A stretch of 64,000 nt of DNA from Prevotella sp. (GTDB lineage Bacteria; Bacteroidota; Bacteroidia; Bacteroidales; Bacteroidaceae): contig JALCDQ010000001.1 of the NCBI GenBank assembly GCA_022641735.1, positions 124,001 to 188,000 of the forward strand, in the 5' to 3' direction. The stretch's first letter is position 1; each line of letters begins with the position of its first letter. The position numbers and the translations under genes are program-made. The notes below the pieces were generated by a model. The model saw nothing but the letters and a program-made list of their open reading frames with translations. It searched no databases and was not told where the DNA came from. Positions 27,288 through 62,084 of this stretch are shown in pieces.

Positions 27288-27381
27288 CAGAAGATAAGCT
27301 GCATTTTGGCATAATATTCAAGCATGCTTGATGATTCTGCTCTCGATATGCATTATCCTTGTACCTTAAAATAAGTGTTTT

Positions 27382-29262: not shown

Positions 29263-29580
29263 TTAAACTTCCATTTTAAACTCACTGATGGCTTTTGATG
29301 ACAAGATGAGCGTCGAGACGGCAAGTATTGCCACACTGACCATCATCGGCAGGGTCTTTCCGAGAGAGAGAAGATGATAGCAGGTGAAGCCCATCAGCAG
29401 TATCACAAGCGGCAATCCGAAGGCAAACGCTATCATGCGCACCCAGTTGCGGGCCTTCGTTTTGCGGGCAGAGCGCTTCACTGTGCGCATCACTCGGCCG
29501 TTAACCTCATCGAGCAACTGCTCTCTCTGCAAGGCCTCTTGTATCAGAGTCTCCAACTCCTGTTCATTCATTTCCTTCAT
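29263..29580 (-). CDS. Small membrane protein, candidate anti-sigma partner
   Basis: This 105-aa protein has a soluble N-terminal part of about 45 residues (MNEQELETLIQEALQREQLLDEVNGRVMRTVKRSARKTKARNW) and two membrane helices (about 46-66 and 78-96). Its gene overlaps the end of the sigma factor gene by 17 nt, the usual position for an anti-sigma factor. The N-terminal part is too short to be a classical zinc anti-sigma domain and has no HxxxCxxC. The role is inferred from position only. Confidence 0.65.
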   Translation of the reverse strand: MKEMNEQELETLIQEALQREQLLDEVNGRVMRTVKRSARKTKARNWVRMIAFAFGLPLVILLMGFTCYHLLSLGKTLPMMVSVAILAVSTLILSSKAISEFKMEV

Positions 29581-30100
29581 TTTGCATCTGTTTTCTTAAT
29601 CGTTCTCTAATTCTGTGCAGTTTTACAAGCACATTGGCTTGCGTCATCTTGAGAGTTTCGGCCACCTCCGATGTCTTCATCTGCTGATAATAGAACATCT
29701 TCAGTATGCGCCGTTCTTCCTCCGGCAGGGTACTTACAGCCCTTTCCATCACCTGCAACCGCCGCTCATGGTCTTCTGAGAATCCTTCCTGTTCTGCCAC
29801 TTCCACGCGTTGCTCGTCAAGGGAAGCCGTCGGTCGTTGCCGCTCTTTGCGTAAGGCATCCAGCGAGAGATGTATTGCGATAGTCGTAATCCATGAGCCC
29901 AAGCTCGCTCCTTGCCAGTTCTCGAGGCTGCTGAAGGCTCGGATGAAGGCTTGCTGAGTGATGTCTTTCGCCATCTCCTCACGGTGCACCAGGGTCATGG
30001 TCTTCGAGAATACGAGTCCCGAATATCGGTTCATTATCTCGCCATAGCTTTGGGTGTCGCCCTGCTGCAATATCTTTTTTACTATCTCTTGATCGTCCAT
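29564..30100 (-). CDS. ECF-type RNA polymerase sigma factor
   Basis: This 178-aa sigma-70 family protein has region 2 (YGEIMNRYSGLVFSKTMTLVHREEMAKDITQQAFIRAFSSLENWQGASLGSWITTIAIHLSLDALRKE) and region 4 (AVSTLPEEERRILKMFYYQQMKTSEVAETLKMTQANVLVKLHRIRERLRKQM), with no region 3, so it is an ECF sigma of the RpoE-like type. It leads a three-gene operon with two membrane proteins. A TAATTTTG -7 box at 30137-30144 on the minus strand is the likely promoter. Confidence 0.93.
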   Translation of the reverse strand: MDDQEIVKKILQQGDTQSYGEIMNRYSGLVFSKTMTLVHREEMAKDITQQAFIRAFSSLENWQGASLGSWITTIAIHLSLDALRKERQRPTASLDEQRVEVAEQEGFSEDHERRLQVMERAVSTLPEEERRILKMFYYQQMKTSEVAETLKMTQANVLVKLHRIRERLRKQMQNEGNE

Positions 30101-30486: not shown

Positions 30487-30565
30487 CGAGAGCAGAATCA
30501 TCAATGCTTGCTTTTGATGTCGTGCCAAGGTGCAGCTTATCTTCGCTTTTCACAATGCAAAGATA
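30487..30565 (-). repeat. Interspersed repeat with dyad-embedded -7 box (second copy)
   Basis: The minus strand reads TATCTTTGC-N10-GCGAAGATAAGCTGCA, then TTGGCA and TTGATGATTCTGCTCTCG. The 5' leader of the DUF4143 gene at 27280-27350 has TATCTTTGCA, GAAGATAAGCTGCA, TTGGCA and TTGATGATTCTGCTCTCG in the same order. No gene follows this copy. A third, partial copy lies at 62483-62508. Confidence 0.75.
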
Positions 30566-30596
30566 CTACAAACGAAAAGCAAAAGGGGAATTATCG

Positions 30597-30656
30597 CGAC
30601 TTATCGAGACTTATCGGGACTTATCGCGACTTATCGAGACTTATCGGGACTTATCG
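30597..30656. repeat. Minisatellite of 10-bp units in a 30-bp higher-order repeat
   Basis: Six 10-bp units cgacttatcg, agacttatcg, ggacttatcg occur twice in the same order, giving two identical 30-bp blocks. A partial unit (ttatcg) precedes them. No gene is evident in this part of the gap. Confidence 0.9.
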
Positions 30657-30693
30657 AAAGCGGAAAGTACGATAAACAGAGGGATTGCGAGAG

Positions 30694-30885
30694 TTTTGTA
30701 ACAAATGTAACAAATGTAACACCCATTTTTAGTACCTTCCTGTTTTCTGAGGAAAAAAATTGGGAAATATAACTTAATAATATATATATAATAATTAATA
30801 TTATTATATATATATTATTAAACTGAAGTCCGAAAAACGGAAGGTACTAAATTTAACTGTTACAAACGTTACAAACGTTACAAAA
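30694..30885. repeat. 192-nt inverted repeat with TGTAAC iterons and perfect AT palindrome
   Basis: The left arm 30694-30747 (TTTTGTAACAAATGTAACAA...TTTTTAGTACCTTCC) and the right arm 30832-30885 are imperfect inverted copies of 54 nt. Each arm carries three GTAAC iterons 9 nt apart. Between them lies a 48-nt palindrome (30774-30821) with 22-bp perfect arms made only of A and T and a TAAT loop. No gene is nearby; 30101-31589 as a whole has no convincing CDS. Confidence 0.85.
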
Positions 30886-31103
30886 TCATCCGATTCATCC
30901 ATTCTGAAAGGAGAAACCAACGTTTCACGCCCCTACTTGACCAGCCCATAAGTTGAGATGAAATGCCTTCGATAAATTGAATCTGAAGGAAGACGAAAGT
31001 GCCCACATGCCTGCTCTCCTATGCCCTTTTCATCTATTCTGACCTTTGACCTGCGAGATTAGGTAAAATCGTATTTTTCGGTTTAAAGATTATGTTAAAA
31101 GAT

Positions 31104-31134
31104 TTGGAATTTCAGATTTTTTTTCCTATCTTTG
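31104..31134 (+). promoter_or_regulatory. Orphan promoter (TTG-N20-TATCTTTG) without a downstream gene
   Basis: TTG at 31104-31106 and TATCTTTG at 31127-31134, 20 nt apart, form a strong promoter match. A 7-bp inverted repeat TGTATCA/TGATACA (31133-31139, 31153-31159) sits at the expected transcription start. Downstream is only a 16-codon ORF (MLAEPDTPDPFMVESL), so a small RNA or a gene remnant is possible. Confidence 0.55.
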
Positions 31135-31540
31135 TATCATGCTTGCTGAACCTGATACACCTGACCCCTTCATGGTGGAATCCCTGTAAAAAGGGAGGAT
31201 TTCGGGCTCAAAAAATAACTGAAATGAATGGGCACAAAGAACCCCTGTTCCCAAAATGACACTCTCGCGCCATGCTTTTCTACGCCATCGCATCGGCACA
31301 GACATTTGGGGGCTTGAATCAGGGGATTTCTCGAAGATGGAGTGCTATCGTGCCCGAAAAAATCAGGACAACTCGGCATCGTGGCGTTGATTGCTATGAC
31401 GAGAATGACGAGTGAAAGGAAGTGATGCGGAGAGCGGCGACATTACTTTTGGGATAGGTATGCACCTTGCCGATGACACTGCGGATTAAAAGCTACATGG
31501 AGTCAACCTAAATCAGGAAACTACAGACACGTGAAAAAGA

Positions 31541-31585
31541 TTTTTGTAACGTTTGTAACAAATGTAACACCCGATTTTAGTACCT
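31541..31585 (+). repeat. Third copy of the TGTAAC-iteron arm
   Basis: TTTTTGTAACGTTTGTAACAAATGTAACACCCGATTTTAGTACCT, quoted here as consecutive pieces of one 45-nt match, parallels the left arm at 30694 in the same direction. It ends 4 nt from the histidine kinase stop codon. Confidence 0.8.
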
Positions 31586-31589
31586 CACA

Positions 31590-32660
31590 TCAGTCTGATT
31601 TGTTGGCATTCTTCATGTTCACGGTGAAAGTATGCAATTGCTCCTTGAAGTCGTAGCTGACCGTCCATTTATAATAATCACATACCTGCCTTACGATGGC
31701 CAATCCCAATCCATTGCCTCGCTGATTGCGCGCAGGATTATGAAAACGGCTGAAAAGCATTTCTGTATCTAACTTCGGAGAAAGCGAATAGTTGCTCACT
31801 TCCAGCCTATCCGTATCGAGCACTATCTTCACATTCATGCCTTCCTCCGCATTGCGAAGGGCGTTCACCACCAGATTGTTTACCAATACCTCCACCAATA
31901 TCCGATTTGCATCCAGCTTCACATCGGCTTTTTGAATTAAGGAAATGCCTGTAGGATAGAGCCTTTCATAACCCGGCATCAGTTCCTGAATGACCTCCGA
32001 TAAAGAGAATACTTCCTTATCCTCATATTGTTTGTTCTCGATTTTCGCCAAAAGAAGCAGACTCTTATTGAGATGGTCTAATCGTCGGGTCACCGAATAC
32101 ATATTATCTACGATGTCGGATTCCTTTTCACTCAAGTTTTCTTGCAGCAACATGTCGAGGTCGGCACGGATAACAGCAATGGGAGTCTGCAACTCATGGG
32201 AAGCATTCTCCGTGAATTCCTTCTGTATTTTATAGCTTCGGGTATCCCTTTCAAGCAAGTCGGTAAGCGAAGACGACAACTGATTGAACTCCCTGACATT
32301 GGTTTCATGAAAAGTGGGGACCTCATCCTTGCCTAATTTGAAGTGCTCTATCTTCTGCAAAATCTCATAAAAAGGAGTCCATAGATTCTTGGTAACCAAG
32401 CGGATAGTCAGCAAGACAGAAGCTCCTACGGCAATGGCAATGAGCACATATTGGAACAACATGCCCACCATTACATCACGCTCAAGGTCGATATCCTCAT
32501 CAATCTTTTGCCCTGCCTTATAAGACTTCACCACGTCTATCAGGTCTTCAGCATAATAGCGGGTGGTTACATAGTAAAAAACAGGTATGCACAAAATCAG
32601 GATTACCACGATGACTATCGTGAGCCTGGTCATTGTCTTGTTGAGTAGAGTTTTCGTCAT
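31590..32660 (-). CDS. Two-component sensor histidine kinase
   Basis: This 356-aa inner-membrane kinase has two membrane helices (about residues 12-32 and 68-90) around a short periplasmic loop of about 35 residues, then a HAMP-like linker. The HisKA box FTENASHELQTPIAVIRADLDML carries the phospho-accepting His, and the HATPase has NLVVNALRNAEEG and RGNGLGLAIVRQVCDYY. The short sensor loop recalls PhoR/PmrB-type kinases that sense the membrane or cationic compounds. It follows the response regulator by 4 nt. Confidence 0.94.
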   Translation of the reverse strand: MTKTLLNKTMTRLTIVIVVILILCIPVFYYVTTRYYAEDLIDVVKSYKAGQKIDEDIDLERDVMVGMLFQYVLIAIAVGASVLLTIRLVTKNLWTPFYEILQKIEHFKLGKDEVPTFHETNVREFNQLSSSLTDLLERDTRSYKIQKEFTENASHELQTPIAVIRADLDMLLQENLSEKESDIVDNMYSVTRRLDHLNKSLLLLAKIENKQYEDKEVFSLSEVIQELMPGYERLYPTGISLIQKADVKLDANRILVEVLVNNLVVNALRNAEEGMNVKIVLDTDRLEVSNYSLSPKLDTEMLFSRFHNPARNQRGNGLGLAIVRQVCDYYKWTVSYDFKEQLHTFTVNMKNANKSD

Positions 32661-32664
32661 AGGC

Positions 32665-33339
32665 CTAAACTATCCATTTATAACCAGCCCCATAGAGAGT
32701 TCTGATGCATTCAGGACAGCCCGTACTATCGAGTTTTCGCTTCAAATTCTTGATATGAGTGAATACGATGTTGAAGTTATCCATCATATCCGCCATCTCT
32801 CCTGTTAAGTGCTCGGCTATCGCCATCTTTGAGATTACCTTGCCGCTATTGCACACCAAGAAGAGCAAAAGTTCATATTCCGTCTTCGTAAGGGACAGCA
32901 TTTGTCCGTTAGCCTTTGCCTCTTTGCTCTGCATATTGATTTCCACAGGACCGCTTTTGAGCAGGTTGTTGTTGTGGGAATAACGCCGGCGCATGAGCGC
33001 AAAGACGCGAATCTTCAGTTCTGAGAGGTTGAAAGGCTTGGAGATGTAATCATCCGCACCAATCTCAAGACCCTCAATCTTGTCATCGACACTGTCTTTT
33101 GCCGACACGATAATCACCCCTGTATCGGGCTTATGCTGCTTGATATGGCGAAGCACATCAAGCCCATTACCATCCGGCAACATCAAGTCGAGCAAGACGC
33201 AATCGTAATCGTAGACACCCACCTTCATCAGCGCATCGCTGATAGTGAATGCCTGTTCGCAAAGGTACTCGTCAGCAGAAAGAAATTTCACGATACTGTC
33301 TGACAGCCTTCGCTCATCTTCAACAATCAATATCTTCAT
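32665..33339 (-). CDS. OmpR-family response regulator
   Basis: This 224-aa protein has a receiver domain (KILIVEDERRLSDSIVKFL; phospho-acceptor Asp in VLLDLMLPDGNGLDVL; switch Lys in DYISKPFNLSEL) and a C-terminal winged-helix DNA-binding domain (LSLTKTEYELLLFLVCNSGKVISKMAIAEHL; FTHIKNLKRKLDSTG). I start at MKILIVEDE rather than 12 residues upstream, as is usual for the family. It lies between the ArnT-like gene and its cognate kinase in one operon. Confidence 0.94.
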   Translation of the reverse strand: MKILIVEDERRLSDSIVKFLSADEYLCEQAFTISDALMKVGVYDYDCVLLDLMLPDGNGLDVLRHIKQHKPDTGVIIVSAKDSVDDKIEGLEIGADDYISKPFNLSELKIRVFALMRRRYSHNNNLLKSGPVEINMQSKEAKANGQMLSLTKTEYELLLFLVCNSGKVISKMAIAEHLTGEMADMMDNFNIVFTHIKNLKRKLDSTGCPECIRTLYGAGYKWIV

Positions 33340-33386
33340 CTTATAATAGTGCAAAATTAATAAAATAAATGACAAACAAGAAATAA

Positions 33387-55880: not shown

Positions 55881-56150
55881 CTATTTACTTGCCTTCTGAC
55901 CGCTTCGGGCATTGCGTTTATCATTGAATACTTCCTTTGCAAAAGCACTTCTAACAAGTGATGCTATTGCGAAAAGTGCCTTCCTCAAGAGTTCCAAATC
56001 TCCGTAACAATCCACCACCTTATAATCTGGCAAGTTGTATTTTACTTCTCCATTGCCATCTATAAAAGTTTTGCACTTTGTTCCGTTCACATCAATTACA
56101 AAACTTGCTTCCTGCAACTTTGGAACGCCTATTTTAAAATCCTTCTTCAT
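55881..56150 (-). CDS. Small element protein overlapping the primase gene
   Basis: This 89-aa protein has an N-terminal beta-rich part with DVNGTKCKTFIDGNGEVKYNLPDYKVVDCYGDLE and a C-terminal helix with basic end (LLRKALFAIASLVRSAFAKEVFNDKRNARSGQKASK). No family is recognised. Its start overlaps the primase stop by 4 nt, so it is translationally coupled and probably assists replication or copy control; this is inferred from position. Confidence 0.62.
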   Translation of the reverse strand: MKKDFKIGVPKLQEASFVIDVNGTKCKTFIDGNGEVKYNLPDYKVVDCYGDLELLRKALFAIASLVRSAFAKEVFNDKRNARSGQKASK

Positions 56151-57304
56151 ACTACTAACTCCAAATTTAAATTATCTACTAACGTACCGATAACAGGATT
56201 TGCCTGTATCATCCTTTTAAGTGCCTTCTCTGCATCTGTCATTGGCTTCTGGCATTGTTCTTCATCAAGCTCATCCGGTGCTATCACATCGCTTGCTATT
56301 GGCTCCATATCTGCAAGCAGCAAATCGGCAATATCGAATTTCTTTTTCTTCTGCTGCTGTGTGGCATATCTCTCGCAAAAGTCCGATACCATGAATTTGG
56401 CAAAGGTCATTTCTTCGGATTTAGCCTTCCATGTTGTAAAGGTTTCCCCTGTGGTGTCTGTGTCCGGATATACTTCAACATCACGCCCTTCAAGTGCCTG
56501 TAACATATCGGGCTTGAAATAATCAAATCCTCCGCATGATAGCCAATTGAATTTTGGATAAACCATGCTACATATAAAAGCAGTCTTTTCACCTTCGACC
56601 AAGCGAACAGGCTTATCCGGATAGGCTTTAAGAAGGTGCTGACCATATAGACATTGAACCAGATTAAAGCCCTGCAATCTCATTATACTATGCGCCCAAT
56701 TAACGCCAGATTCCTTTATCCTGTGCCCTGTGTCGCCATCGTATGCTATGACCTTGCCACTCCTCACCTTTAAAGCCTCATCTATCTGCCAATAAATAGT
56801 GCTGCCGTTCCGAGTGCTGCCCATATAATAAAGGGCGCAAGCTTTTTCAAGTTCTTCAGTAGTGAAATATCCGCAAAGGTAATATATCAAGTTGTTCTGC
56901 GTGCTTTGGCTCTGGTAAACTATATCCTTATTAATATAAGAAGGTGCCTGCGGCGGCTCCTGCCGAGTAGTCGCTTGATAGGGTGTAAATCTATAAGTTG
57001 AGGCTCTGGCTCCATCCTCATACACATCTAAGTTGTATCTACGTGCAAGAAATTTGACCGCATCCGGATAGGGTAGTTTCTCCATCTCCATGATGAAATT
57101 AATGACATCACCACCCTTTCCACACCCAAAACAATGATATATCTGCCTCGAAGGTAAAACAAAAAAGGATGGTGTCCTCTCATTGTGAAACGGACATATA
57201 CCTTTATAAGATACTCCGCATTTCTTGAGTTCTACATAATCGCTAATAACATCTACTATATTAGCAACTTCTTTAATTCTGTCTATCGTTTGGCTGTCTA
57301 TCAT
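56147..57304 (-). CDS. CHC2 zinc-finger primase with toprim-like domain
   Basis: This 385-aa protein starts with a DnaG-type CHC2 zinc finger (VELKKCGVSYKGICPFHNERTPSFFVLPSRQIYHCFGCGKGGDVINFIMEME). A DUF6371-like toprim region follows, with VRLVEGEKTAFICSMVYPKFNWLSCGG and VEVYPDTDTTGETFTTW in place of the EG and DxD toprim motifs. Such primases serve replication of mobilisable Bacteroides elements. It sits 68 nt after the RepA-like gene, across the GTTTCC repeat cluster. Confidence 0.88.
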   Translation of the reverse strand: MIDSQTIDRIKEVANIVDVISDYVELKKCGVSYKGICPFHNERTPSFFVLPSRQIYHCFGCGKGGDVINFIMEMEKLPYPDAVKFLARRYNLDVYEDGARASTYRFTPYQATTRQEPPQAPSYINKDIVYQSQSTQNNLIYYLCGYFTTEELEKACALYYMGSTRNGSTIYWQIDEALKVRSGKVIAYDGDTGHRIKESGVNWAHSIMRLQGFNLVQCLYGQHLLKAYPDKPVRLVEGEKTAFICSMVYPKFNWLSCGGFDYFKPDMLQALEGRDVEVYPDTDTTGETFTTWKAKSEEMTFAKFMVSDFCERYATQQQKKKKFDIADLLLADMEPIASDVIAPDELDEEQCQKPMTDAEKALKRMIQANPVIGTLVDNLNLELVV

Positions 57305-57319
57305 CGTCTTAATTTTAGC

Positions 57320-57474
57320 GTTTCCGTTTCCGTTTCCTTAAGAGATGGAAACAGGAAACAAGCATTATCTCATCAAAAAGGCAATACCTCCTCATCGTTT
57401 CCTTTATTGTTTCCTTCCGTTTCCTTTAGAAACACATTGGAAACGTTGCTATCTGTTTCAGTGTTTCCGTTTCC
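57320..57474. repeat. Cluster of 11 GTTTCC hexamers, candidate origin
   Basis: GTTTCC occurs on the plus strand at 57320, 57326, 57332, 57397, 57409, 57419, 57463 and 57469, and inverted (GGAAAC) at 57347, 57354 and 57439. The cluster spans the 3' end of the RepA-like gene and the gap to the primase gene; in the protein it is read as a GNGNTE/GNNKGN low-complexity tail. Confidence 0.7.
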
Positions 57475-58473
57475 TCCATCTAAGGGTTTGGGAACAAGTA
57501 ACGACCTTTCAACTCTACGGATAATCTTACTAACATTTCCTTTGGTGCATCCTATTTCGCTGCCTATCTGCTCATAAGTCTTTCCTTGCCGTTTCATCTG
57601 CATTATACGTTCATATTTCTCGCCTGTCGTATCATCCACCTTTGCAAGTGCTTCAAACGGCGTTCTATTTCCTGTATCTGAAAAGCACATATTTTCAGAA
57701 AATCGCAAGTCGTAACTCTCATATTTGTATTGTGCCGGCAAGTAGTTTCCTTTGACGATACAAAGGTGTTTAATATCCGGATTCTGCAAGTCGGACCGCA
57801 ATTCCATCACTAAGCGCATTTTAGCCTCTAAGCCCTGCGAACCAATAAGATTATTTTTAGATGGAGCCAATTCTTCAGTCCGCTTTCCGCAATGATGCAA
57901 GAAGAAGAAAAGGCATTGATATTTATTTGCTAATTGCTCAAACTCATTTAAGAAGGTCCGTACCTTATTATTCTGATTCATCTCTCCACCATATAAATCT
58001 GAAAAGCAATCAATAAAGACGACATCCACCGGCTCACTCTCAAGCTGCTCATCAAGTTTTTTTGTCAAGTCTGTAACATTGAATAAGAATTTCATATTAC
58101 CAAGCAATTCTGTATTTATATTCATATCTTTCGCTTGTCTACGTATCAAGTAGCAAATCGCTGTTTCGTCATCCTCTGTACTCACATATATGGCTTTATG
58201 ATATTCTGCATTGATAGCCATCCCCAGAAAACTTTTAGACTCCGATACTATCGAAAGGGCGAGAAACCTAAGGAACGCTGATTTGCCTGTATCGCTTGCC
58301 CCTGCTATGCAAACAATCCCAGACTTTGGCAATATAGGCTCCACGAGTGTGGGGATATTCTCTACATCTCTTTCATACAGGACTTTAGCAGAAATAAAGT
58401 CGCTTTTCTGCTCTTGAGGCTGCGCCTTCTCTAAGTCAGCCTGCAACAATTCTTTTATTTTCCTTTTTGCCAT
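57373..58473 (-). CDS. RepA-like AAA ATPase (replicative helicase type)
   Basis: This 366-aa protein of the AAA_25/RecA-fold RepA type has Walker A ASDTGKSAFLRFLALSI (about residue 60) and Walker B VVFIDCFSDLYGG, followed by FFFLHHCGKRTEELAPSKNNLIGSQGLEAKMRLVMEL. Near residues 300-325 is an HTH-like segment (QGKTYEQIGSEIGCTKGNVSKIIRRVERS), unusual for plain RepA helicases. The low-complexity C-terminus is encoded by GTTTCC repeats. It probably loads or unwinds at the element origin and works with the primase. Confidence 0.87.
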   Translation of the reverse strand: MAKRKIKELLQADLEKAQPQEQKSDFISAKVLYERDVENIPTLVEPILPKSGIVCIAGASDTGKSAFLRFLALSIVSESKSFLGMAINAEYHKAIYVSTEDDETAICYLIRRQAKDMNINTELLGNMKFLFNVTDLTKKLDEQLESEPVDVVFIDCFSDLYGGEMNQNNKVRTFLNEFEQLANKYQCLFFFLHHCGKRTEELAPSKNNLIGSQGLEAKMRLVMELRSDLQNPDIKHLCIVKGNYLPAQYKYESYDLRFSENMCFSDTGNRTPFEALAKVDDTTGEKYERIMQMKRQGKTYEQIGSEIGCTKGNVSKIIRRVERSLLVPKPLDGGNGNTETDSNVSNVFLKETEGNNKGNDEEVLPF

Positions 58474-58476
58474 ACC

Positions 58477-58767
58477 TTATTTATTATAAGTGTGTTTATA
58501 CTTGCCCACTCCATCACTTTCAGCACGCTGTATCTCACTTTCTGCAAACAGGACTCGACGACCTATTTTAATAGGCGTTATCTTACCATCTTTCACGTAA
58601 CTGCTAAGAGTGGGCAACGTGATATTCCACCTATCACAAACCTGCTTCCGAGTGTATCGGTTTTCATCTACAACTTGCGGTGCATTAGCCGCCATTGCTT
58701 CACTTACTGCATCCTTTATAATAGGCTGCAAGAGATTTCTAAGCATTTCTGTAATTTCTTCGCTCAT
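58477..58767 (-). CDS. Excisionase-like helix-turn-helix protein
   Basis: This 96-aa protein has an N-terminal helical segment and a MerR-like/HTH_17 winged helix (RYTRKQVCDRWNITLPTLSSYVKDGKITPIKIGRRVLFAESEIQRA), the form found in excisionases and directionality factors of Bacteroides elements. It lies 3 nt before the RepA-like gene, so excision and replication genes are co-expressed. A role with the integrase is inferred from family and context. Confidence 0.85.
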   Translation of the reverse strand: MSEEITEMLRNLLQPIIKDAVSEAMAANAPQVVDENRYTRKQVCDRWNITLPTLSSYVKDGKITPIKIGRRVLFAESEIQRAESDGVGKYKHTYNK

Positions 58768-58893
58768 AATCTTTTCTTTTAAAGTTTATGCTGCAAAGAA
58801 ACAAAGAATAAAAGAAAACAGAATAAAAAAAAAGTTGTTATAAGTTGAAACAATAATTAACAACCTACAACAACCTGTAAAGACTAAATTTTA

Positions 58894-59655
58894 TTACTTT
58901 TCTTCAAAGATGATGACATTAGACGATTTTACTCCGGCATTTGGATTTGTTACTCGCATATATTTAGAAATAGCCTCCCAACTTCCGTTAATTTTAAATT
59001 CCGACTCGAATTCTTTTCTCGAAGGTGCTTTGCTAATATATCCTTTTTGGCACGCCTTGAACATGACGGCACCGACCATTGCACCACCCTTGTCATCAAT
59101 AAGGAAATGTAATCTCTTTTTGAGTTTCTCCTTGTCATCGTACTGAATTATACTATCAAATGTTTTTTCGGGCAGTGCATTGTTTGTCTTGTCATTTGCT
59201 ACTTTGCTTGCAGATTCCTCTTTCCCATTTAAAACGCCATAAACACCGGTCTTAATATCTACTGATTCCTGTTGAGGCTCTGGAGCCTTCGGCATGATTT
59301 TATCACGGATTTTTTCGCACTCGCTATGGTAACTCTTACATATTTGAAAAAAGCATGAAATATAAGATTCTTCATCATACGATTCTTGATAATTATGTTT
59401 TTCCAAACTCTTTTTATCTTTAGATATATATTTTTCGTATGGCTGTAACTTGTCATACGCTTCAATCGTATATCTCTTTGCTCTCATTAGACTATCATGG
59501 CTTGTATAAAAAATAACTTCATCGTAATAATGTGTTGCATTACCATTCTCTAAACTGCATATTAAATCAAATATTTGAGGGAAATAGTCAATATCTAATC
59601 CCTTATAATGCTTCAAAAGCCTTTTTTCAAGTTTACTTATGTTTTTCTTATCCAT
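58894..59655 (-). CDS. Element protein of unknown function, 253 aa
   Basis: I do not recognise this protein. It is hydrophilic, with an N-terminal helical region rich in Lys, Tyr and Glu (MDKKNISKLEKRLLKHYKGLDIDYFPQIFDLICSLENG), a variable linker around residues 125-165, and a compact C-terminal ~85 residues (LHFLIDDKGGAMVGAVMFKACQKGYISKAPSRKEFESEFKINGSWEAISKYMRVTNP). The C-terminal part resembles a winged-helix or cargo-type module seen in several Bacteroides element proteins. It has no signal or membrane segment and is AT-rich. Confidence 0.7.
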   Translation of the reverse strand: MDKKNISKLEKRLLKHYKGLDIDYFPQIFDLICSLENGNATHYYDEVIFYTSHDSLMRAKRYTIEAYDKLQPYEKYISKDKKSLEKHNYQESYDEESYISCFFQICKSYHSECEKIRDKIMPKAPEPQQESVDIKTGVYGVLNGKEESASKVANDKTNNALPEKTFDSIIQYDDKEKLKKRLHFLIDDKGGAMVGAVMFKACQKGYISKAPSRKEFESEFKINGSWEAISKYMRVTNPNAGVKSSNVIIFEEK

Positions 59656-59695
59656 AAAAATTTTGCCTTTAAATTTATATCTGCAAAGATAATAT

Positions 59696-60097
59696 TTATT
59701 TTAATAGGTTGTTTGTTATCGTGTGGGATTTAACAAATTCGGGGCTTACTACTGCATCCACTGCATAAAAGTGGGAAAACGCCATACAGGTAACCTTTAT
59801 CTTTTGATAATTAGGATTATAGCAGCATATTTCAATATAAGGAAACCAATCATTATATTTAATAAGTTCTTTTACTACAAATACGCCATTATTCATTTGA
59901 AGGGCGATTAACCTTCCTTCCTGTCTGGTCATTTCCGCTTCTGTGCATTGTATTTCGTGAATTAACAGGCAATCCTTATCTCTCACCCTGTTAGGCGATT
60001 TCGGGCTATCCATGCAATCGCCTTTTACATGTATCATAAATCCGTTTGGGCTGTGCACGTTTAGGCTGCTTATATCAATTTCTTTTTCTTTTTTCAT
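59696..60097 (-). CDS. Stand-alone S24/LexA-fold protein 1, Cys for Ser
   Basis: This 133-aa protein has the layout of the S24 (LexA/UmuD/CI) peptidase domain without a DNA-binding part. The nucleophile box reads VKGDCMDS where GDSM is usual, followed by VRDKDCLLIHEI (normally DGDxVxV). The Lys of the dyad is kept (GVFVVKELIKY), and strands such as YIEICCYNPNY and a last strand FYAVDAVVS follow. It is adjacent to a paralogue. It may be a Cys-type self-cleaving switch or a non-cleaving binding partner. Confidence 0.7.
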   Translation of the reverse strand: MKKEKEIDISSLNVHSPNGFMIHVKGDCMDSPKSPNRVRDKDCLLIHEIQCTEAEMTRQEGRLIALQMNNGVFVVKELIKYNDWFPYIEICCYNPNYQKIKVTCMAFSHFYAVDAVVSPEFVKSHTITNNLLK

Positions 60098-60117
60098 AAC
60101 TTTAAAACTGCTGCTGT

Positions 60118-60462
60118 TTATTTTGGGATTACTTCATCCACTACATAAAACGCCCTTATCTTATTAACAGGAATAACAAAAGTTTCAAACTTTGGCACGT
60201 AAAAACAGACTTCAATTGCATTCGGATAGAAAAACCGATAAAGTTCTTTTACTGCAAAATCCTTTTCGGAAAACCTAATAACTATAAGTTTATGCAAAGA
60301 ATTTAGCAAGTTAGTGAAATTTATATCCACCCTGTGAATTCCGAGCCAATAGCCATTTTTAACTCTCATTGGCGAAAACTCGCTATCCAAGCAATCGCCA
60401 CGTACTTCCATAGTAAACGGACTATATCCATCTGCCAAATCTTTGTTTCCCATTGTTTCCAT
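60118..60462 (-). CDS. Stand-alone S24/LexA-fold protein 2, Cys for Ser
   Basis: This 114-aa paralogue of the next gene has MEVRGDCLDSEFSPMRVKNGYWLGIHRV, the S24 box with Cys for the nucleophile Ser, the retained Lys in DFAVKELYRF, and IEVCFYVPKFETFVIPVNKIRAFYVVDEV at the end. It has no helix-turn-helix domain. It is first of the pair, between a hairpin-rich 206-nt gap and its paralogue (20-nt spacing), so the two are probably co-expressed and may pair with each other. Confidence 0.7.
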   Translation of the reverse strand: METMGNKDLADGYSPFTMEVRGDCLDSEFSPMRVKNGYWLGIHRVDINFTNLLNSLHKLIVIRFSEKDFAVKELYRFFYPNAIEVCFYVPKFETFVIPVNKIRAFYVVDEVIPK

Positions 60463-60504
60463 ACTATATATTTTTAAAATTCGTTTGCGTTGTTCCTTGT
60501 TTTT

Positions 60505-60664
60505 AAATACCCATTTTTTGGGGTATTTAGATTTATTACTTCTTAATAGGTGGATTTCTACCCATTTAAGTGTTTGTAGGTGATTTCATTAATTCCGTAA
60601 ATTCTACGGATTTAAGACTTTGCCAAAACAGGATTCCGTTCTGATAGGTGGATTTCCACCTATC
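60505..60664. other. Cluster of stem-loops between S24-like genes and integrase
   Basis: AAATACCC/GGGTATTT (60505-60528), CCGTA/TACGG (60595-60609) and the palindrome GATAGGTGGA-TT-TCCACCTATC (60643-60664) lie close together. The half-site ATAGGTGGATTTCTACCCAT near 60544 resembles the last. No T-run follows any, so they are more likely binding sites or structured DNA than terminators. Confidence 0.65.
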
Positions 60665-60668
60665 ACCA

Positions 60669-62084
60669 TTATATCGCTTCATGATGATTACTTTTTAATT
60701 TTCTGGCTGTGCTCATCGCCACTTCATCGTTGCCTGTGCGTATATAATGCTCAAACACTATCTCGCTGCTGTGCCCGGATATTTTCATTATCTCCCTGTT
60801 GGTAAGTATGTGCTTATTGTACAGGCACGTGATACCAGAACGGCGTGCGCTGTGCCCTGTGATAATATCCCACTTCGGGCGTGATGGCTGTCCCTTCTCG
60901 TTCCTTTTAAATAGGTCTGCGCCATCGTGGTACTCTCTGTATCTCTGTTCACTTCTTCGCTCTGCTGCTGTTAGTATAGTGGTAAACATTTCATTAAGTG
61001 ATGGAACGTTATCGGATAACTGCTTCATTATATCTTTTAGATACCTGTTAAAACTCTGTAAAGGTATATCGGAAATGTGTGGGAAATTATAGCCATACTT
61101 CTTGCAAATCGTTTCCATCCTGTCATCATAAAAAGGGATGACAACACTTGAACCTGTCTTTTGCTGTACTAAGCGACAACAGGGCGTGCCATCCTCAAGA
61201 GGCTCTGCAAAGTTATCTTTATACAGGCTCATATAATCGCTATATCTCTGGCATAACAACGTGCCGAGTACAAACATATCACGTGTGCGCTCTCTCTCGC
61301 CTGTCAGTGGCATATCATACAGGGCTTGCAGTTCTTCTTCGTTTAGGTACGTTGCTGCTCTCATCTGCTCATCTTTCACCTTGCGTTCCTTCCAGACTTT
61401 CAAAGAAACGGCGTTATGGTTGAGTCCTTCCTCTGCTGCTGCATTACATAACTTGCGAAAGCAAATGACGTACTTCGTAATCGTCTTGCTCATCAAGCCC
61501 CTTTTGTTCTCCAGATACTTGCTAAAACCATCCGCCACCTTCTTATCTATTCCATCAAAGGTTAAGTGCTTACCCTTGCAAAAGTCTGTCAGATACCGAC
61601 CGAATTCACGCCAGACTTTAAGACTGCCTGCGCTGTATCTCTTATCTGCGCCGTGTCTTATATCGCCGTTGCTGATACCTTCATAAAACTCACGATAGTA
61701 GTTAAGAACGGAAAGACGTTCTTTTAGTTGCTCTTGCTCTGCCTTGATACGTTCCTTCTCCTGCTGCTCTCTGGCTTCCTTATACGCTATGTTAGCGACT
61801 ACGTTGTTAATCGCCTGCTTGTCATATACGCCCGTATCTATTAGATTATCCACTGCATCACGGATGGCAAAGAGTTTCTTGAACAACTCACCATTGGCAC
61901 GCTGATACTTGTCATTGATAGTATTACCAATTACCTTTGCTCTCCACATATCCGAGTCGCTTGTCTTGAGTAATGTATTAACCATGATATTAAGTGCCTT
62001 CCGGCTCTCAGTTTTGCGCCGTTGAATACGAATGTATATTGAGGCTTCTCCGCTTTTTTCTGATAAAATGAAAAACTTTGCCAT
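60669..62084 (-). CDS. Tyrosine-type site-specific integrase
   Basis: This 471-aa tyrosine recombinase of the Bacteroidota type has an N-terminal arm-binding region (FILSEKSGEASIYIRIQRRKTESRKALNIMV), a SAM-like core-binding domain (GKHLTFDGIDKKVADGFSKYLENKRGLMSKTITKYVICFRKLCNAA) and a catalytic domain. The catalytic domain has Arg in LGTLLCQRYSDYMSL, HSARRSGITCLYNKHILTNREIMKISGHSS with the HxxR box, and the final Tyr in FEHYIR. It lies next to the right attachment site, as usual, and should catalyse integration into tRNA-His. Confidence 0.95.
   Translation of the reverse strand: MAKFFILSEKSGEASIYIRIQRRKTESRKALNIMVNTLLKTSDSDMWRAKVIGNTINDKYQRANGELFKKLFAIRDAVDNLIDTGVYDKQAINNVVANIAYKEAREQQEKERIKAEQEQLKERLSVLNYYREFYEGISNGDIRHGADKRYSAGSLKVWREFGRYLTDFCKGKHLTFDGIDKKVADGFSKYLENKRGLMSKTITKYVICFRKLCNAAAEEGLNHNAVSLKVWKERKVKDEQMRAATYLNEEELQALYDMPLTGERERTRDMFVLGTLLCQRYSDYMSLYKDNFAEPLEDGTPCCRLVQQKTGSSVVIPFYDDRMETICKKYGYNFPHISDIPLQSFNRYLKDIMKQLSDNVPSLNEMFTTILTAAERRSEQRYREYHDGADLFKRNEKGQPSRPKWDIITGHSARRSGITCLYNKHILTNREIMKISGHSSEIVFEHYIRTGNDEVAMSTARKLKSNHHEAI

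Follow-up and report, generated by a model that had tools for sequence, protein, structure and literature searches.

Inverted iteron arms about an A/T palindrome in Prevotella: a possible relic or satellite of an origin-like element family of Bacteroidales

An intergenic structure in the Prevotella sp. window (the whole 64,000-nt stretch of DNA that was analysed) has three iteron arms, two of which face each other across a palindrome made only of A and T. Judged from its sequence, it may be a relic, or a non-autonomous satellite, that has no genes of its own and belongs to a family of origin-like cis elements in Bacteroidales tied to a chromosomal replication module, a tentative reading to which we give somewhat less than an even chance. 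The element family is widespread in Bacteroidales and is apparently undescribed and unnamed; its iteron strings were not found in open-licence PMC papers.

The whole structure lies in a 1.5-kb gap, with no convincing ORF, between a gene for an ECF-type sigma factor (29564–30100, minus strand) and one for a sensor histidine kinase (31590–32660, minus strand; response regulator at 32665–33375). ARM1 (30690–30740, plus strand) carries TGTAAC iterons at 30697, 30706 and 30715 (GTAACAnnn in an alternative reading) and then TTTTTAGTACCTTCC at 30726–30740, while ARM2 (30839–30885, minus strand) is an inverted copy of ARM1 with GTTACA iterons at 30859, 30868 and 30877 plus GGAAGGTACTAAA. The aligned inverted arms (30694–30750 and 30829–30885, 57 nt each) are 75% complementary, and each has three TGTAAC/GTTACA words at 9-nt spacing (TGTAAC-N3) and one TTTAGTACCTTCC motif. 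A first-pass annotation of this DNA had described inverted arms with three iterons each at 9 nt, and the statistics bear it out: the double iteron has six matches in 64 kb against 0.19 expected, and the arm alignment scores 44 against 16.9 ± 2.3 in 1000 shuffles (maximum 30). Between the arms lies the A/T-only palindrome (30774–30821, no strand assigned), previously called a perfect 48-nt palindrome; it does have 22-bp perfect arms, but around a 4-nt centre, so that strictly its structure is 22+4+22 and the 48-mer is not self-complementary throughout. Its arm of 22 is far longer than any from 100 shuffles of the 1.5-kb intergenic DNA, which reach no more than 9, and the 64-kb window has no other palindrome whose arms measure 12 or more. 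The shuffles exclude the inverted arms and the palindrome as products of chance. As single-stranded DNA, 201 nt of the locus are predicted to form one hairpin of −40.2 kcal/mol (z = −9).

Both arms of the earlier two-arm description are thus real, but it missed a third, about 0.65 kb away. ARM3 (31538–31588, plus strand) has the orientation of ARM1, iterons at 31545, 31554 and 31563 and TTTTAGTACCT, and abuts the histidine-kinase stop codon; its 31538–31585 portion is 88% identical to the left arm. The spacer between ARM2 and ARM3 (30886–31537, no strand assigned) is non-coding, an ORF check and an Rfam search having given no convincing ORF and no Rfam match, and a putative promoter of Bacteroidetes type (TTTG ... 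TATCTTTG; 31103–31135, plus strand), picked out by eye only, points from within it to ARM3. Immediately outside ARM1 is a 10-nt tandem repeat, GACTTATCGR, in about six copies (30590–30657, plus strand). Two further observations concern the surroundings. A 58–72-nt intergenic repeat, 82–83% identical, occurs three times in the genome (window 27290–27345 and 30487–30544, and L439:15536–15604). Away from the element, window 56147–62084 is probably an integrated mobilizable element, with genes, named by eye from sequence, for a CHC2 primase (56147–57304), a RepA-like ATPase (57373–58473) and a tyrosine recombinase (60669–62084).

Comparable structures exist in the same 2.56-Mb genome (81.5% complete), of which 2.31 Mb were scanned. 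Double iterons and arms of the TGTAAC type occur at the window locus only. A second perfect A/T palindrome, of 44 nt, lies at C1:361585–361628 between 60-nt arms that are 90% complementary; the iteron word of this second element is ATCACA, and it too has three arms, the third lying 332 nt past ARM2. Two further solo arms with its word are found within 9.4 kb, and ATCACA-type arms of comparable similarity are absent from the rest of the scanned DNA. These solo arms (L341:14963 and L342:4317) surround the core genes rsgA, frr and ksgA, one lying between convergent genes beside rsgA and one upstream of a HigBA-like toxin-antitoxin pair. Contig C4 of this genome and G127:C53 had suggested that mobile islands are bracketed by arms, but this is kept as a hint only, because the arms of the second element surround core genes as well. 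The third kind is a unit of about 590 bp with 7-nt TAAAAAA arrays and a shared TTTAGTACCTT motif, present in at least seven copies, 80–91% identical, each intergenic and with unrelated neighbours. Thus three iteron kinds coexist in this genome, each uniform within its loci. The ends of the TAAAAAA unit carry direct repeats, ATTTTACAAA-TT-GAATT, and its flanks at L335, L374 and L435 bear a 9-nt iteron family, C-N-GAGAACT, as outer inverted arms, as if elements were nested. The sole DUF3987 gene of the genome is on a different contig from the window, with HU-HIG and DUF5675 genes, and is flanked by one TAAAAAA-kind copy and a solo arm. In two genomes HU-HIG (PF18291) genes are found no more than about 0.4 kb from iteron arms (L377:13296–13760 and L467:5748–6554), and their products may be alternative arm binders. 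An operon at L456:4038–15728 has an inverted-iteron element on one side and a DUF3987-like gene on the other; its proteins (tubulin-like, large Ppx-like, ZorA- and ZorB-like, DUF4357 and a non-specific nuclease) give it the look of an unusual defence operon.

Beyond this genome, the triple iteron is present in 27 of 301 family genomes, in many cases as inverted pairs about A/T palindromes. A scan of 85,000 genomes, using two inverted double iterons as the query, gave at least 119 loci, mostly in Bacteroidales, a count biased to TGTAAC since that word was used for the scan; the underlying data are draft genomes with crude ORF calls. Among the 119 matches listed, 95 show the layout with an A/T-rich gap of 80–170 nt, and 31 of those 95 contain a perfect palindrome arm of at least 10, against 0.85 expected. 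Read inward, the window arms give GTAACA and most rumen copies GTTACA; because TGTWACA is nearly self-complementary, this difference in orientation is only apparent and amounts to one base. Flanking genes vary from copy to copy, divergent, convergent and tandem pairs being hosts alike, and the perfect-palindrome copies share no conserved neighbour. Several wider searches were negative: the window locus found nothing in plasmid, phage and viral collections or in Rfam, TTTAGTACCTTCC as a wider marker was not enriched over a reversed control in 120 genus genomes, and the palindromic layout was mostly absent from viral matches to the arm patterns (6 of 144), which were set aside.

In 14 of the 95 loci, again among the matches listed, the element belongs to a cluster with a gene for a protein of about 435 aa (p435), and in 10 of these 14 it lies about 45 nt (usually 45–47) upstream of the p435 start. 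After p435 comes a primase of CHC2/TOPRIM (DnaG-type) kind, and the order of the module, orfA–orfB–element–p435–primase, is operon-like. In a protein-based, unbiased set, inspection by eye finds an inverted-iteron element upstream of 23 of 23 stand-alone p435 genes. Under the stricter rule of a script, by which the same exact 6-mer must occur two or more times in each orientation, 30 of the 32 modules tested have the element, 20 of the 22 protein-found ones among them. The iteron words of the modules (GTTTCA, GTTCCA, GTATCA, ATCTCA, ATCACA and others) are uniform inside one element and differ between elements. Modules with the same word have slightly more similar p435 (permutation p 0.001) and orfB (0.01), with 0.08 for the primase, a likeness that could be explained by shared ancestry. 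Fragments of the p435 N-terminus lie beside 12–13 solitary elements (one, L055, may be cut by a contig end), so that many solitary copies are remains of modules. The protein p435 is homologous, at about 30% identity, to the C-terminal half of DUF3987-type proteins of 760–850 aa; DUF3987 has been predicted to act as a replicative helicase in mobile elements (PMC5862659). The last 60 residues of p435 are confidently modelled with a winged-helix fold, at a mean pLDDT of 87.6 and with values over 90 for most of the segment; the PDB matches of this fold are mostly MarR/IclR-type winged helices at weak E-values of 0.03–0.1.

These relatives suggest how an element of this kind might work. A module protein, p435 being the first candidate through its winged helix, would bind the 9-nt iterons, three in each inverted arm; the intervening A/T core would melt or extrude as a cruciform; and the helicase-like p435 and the primase would load at the opened core, as at an iteron origin. 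The iteron sites would probably also control the promoter downstream. Since each element has a private iteron word, cross-reaction between related elements in the same cell would be avoided. All three steps, binding, melting and replication, are inference here. What counts for the origin-like reading is the anatomy, the recurrence, the position in the modules, the decayed modules beside solitary copies and the uniformity of the word within an element. Tandem iterons, three of 9 nt in each arm, and an A/T melting region, the 48-nt A/T-only core, are what an iteron-type origin has. A proven precedent is the genomic island SGI1, which is integrated and has an oriV made up of iterons together with an A/T region that contains an inverted repeat (PMC7826253). 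Counting against it, the window locus has no replication gene, as had been noted before, neither helicase-like nor primase genes, and no p435, HU or DUF3987 remains; an adjacent cognate replication gene is present in the module-associated relatives. DnaA boxes show no excess at the window element (6 loose matches against 6.2 expected), and they are not universal in the element family either. In addition, p435 has a degenerate Walker A, its whole-protein structure model is unusable (pLDDT 41), and it is missing from plasmid, phage and viral collections, so that no extrachromosomal form is known. The link between the window and the gene-carrying form is one of architecture and iteron type, not of sequence homology: module-associated elements have an asymmetric A/T core, the window type a perfect palindrome. 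That the window copy descends from a p435–primase module is a further inference, since the locus keeps no trace of the genes and the perfect-palindrome type shares with the module type its layout and iteron type but not alignable sequence. The solo arms of the second element around rsgA, frr and ksgA are not explained by a simple origin relic.

The first-pass annotation had suggested an origin-like site or the trace of a mobile cassette, and had judged that a mobile or replication role would be unlikely if the arms occurred nowhere else and had no conserved neighbours. The layout does recur, with conserved neighbours in the module form, and the idea thus survives, even though the TGTAAC arm is a single-locus feature of its own genome. 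It is supported in part, by relatives in which the layout stands directly in front of the DUF3987-like gene and its primase, and by the decayed gene beside solitary copies; no transposase or integrase is recognised in the examined modules, and no target-site duplication is found. The latter results bear equally on the view that the structure is a MITE-like transposable repeat, whose arms would serve as terminal inverted repeats, the element being non-autonomous and mobilised in trans by a transposase. A short, non-coding, A/T-rich element dispersed intergenically fits this view, as do the near-identical copies at separate sites of one genome (L066/L087) and the multi-copy TAAAAAA unit, a related layout, in the window's own genome. 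However, target-site duplications are not above chance (5 observed against 3.0 expected in 94 elements), with none at the window and none visible at the TAAAAAA unit; no parent transposon with matching ends was found, the modules having no recognised transposase; the window word is confined to its one locus; and third and solo arms are a poor fit to simple terminal repeats. We consider this explanation unlikely. For a comparison with an empty site, the sigma-factor homologues of the genus, merely 40–48% identical, are too distant.

Regulation offers another explanation, in which the arms would be clustered sites for a local transcription factor, regulating either the sigma-factor gene or a transcript of the spacer, while the palindrome would merely bend or melt DNA. 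The element does lie upstream of the ECF sigma gene, with a two-component system next to it; in the modules it stands where the promoter of p435 would be, and could be no more than a promoter or operator of the module; and the promoter-like sequence falls between ARM2 and ARM3. A dedicated operator is nevertheless rather unlikely, given that flanking genes differ everywhere and that gene pairs of every orientation host copies. Quite improbable is a structure with no present function, a quasi-palindrome enlarged and homogenised by template switching during replication, which would have made the arms similar and perfected the core. Two papers (PMC8604942, PMC8794818) describe such switching as homogenising inverted-repeat arms and as creating and maintaining hairpins, and it would account in part for the likeness of the arms and the locus-private words, and for extra local arms, but it leaves unexplained the three evenly spaced iterons of each arm, the fixed site upstream of p435 in the modules tested and the spread of arms over 9.4 kb at the second element. 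An invertible segment, with a promoter flipping between ARM2 and ARM3, is very improbable, for although these are 44-nt inverted repeats 656 nt apart about the promoter-like sequence, a topology repeated at the second locus, the ORFs up to about 5 kb away include no invertase gene, and the arms, being arrays of iterons, do not look like the crossover sites of invertases; solo arms also occur elsewhere.

The analysis ties a widespread Bacteroidales cis element to a concrete gene module, p435 and primase. The locus-private iteron words offer a natural experiment on the diversification of DNA-binding specificity between copies that coexist, and the reading of these words by a winged-helix helicase-like protein is a directly testable prediction. 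A bolder proposal, which we regard as rather improbable, sees in the family a new class of selfish element of the chromosome. A helicase-primase module would then spread with no help from a recombinase, via its inverted-iteron/palindrome cis site, with diversifying words making each copy a private incompatibility group and gene-less copies, the window's included, living as satellites.

Among known systems, REP/BIME sequences resemble the element in occurring solo and as inverted pairs in intergenic DNA, but its single arms are iteron arrays rather than hairpins with a GTAG/CGTC tag, and no adjoining RAYT gene was seen. MITEs such as BrickBuilt of Porphyromonas gingivalis (PMC4596501) are likewise non-coding, intergenic and A/T-rich, with inverted repeats, internal short tandem repeats and a Bacteroidales host; unlike them, the element lacks a target duplication and a parent transposase, varies its word from copy to copy and has extra solo arms. 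The DUF3987/VirE-type primase-helicase modules of mobile elements (PMC5862659) are similar in that p435 is homologous to full-length DUF3987-type proteins and is paired with a primase. They differ in that p435 stands alone, corresponds to the C-terminal half only and has the degenerate Walker A; no description of a cis element of the inverted-iteron kind for them was found in the literature searched. Iteron origins of plasmids and the oriV-RepA of SGI1 differ in that the element has two to three inverted arms about a centred perfect A/T palindrome, iterons of 9 nt rather than the 16 nt of SGI1, no known Rep family and no DnaA boxes, the window copy being without a rep gene. They are similar in their tandem iterons with an adjoining A/T-rich region that contains an inverted repeat, and in the adjacent replication gene of the gene-carrying relatives, and the element-private iteron words resemble the incompatibility groups of iteron replicons.
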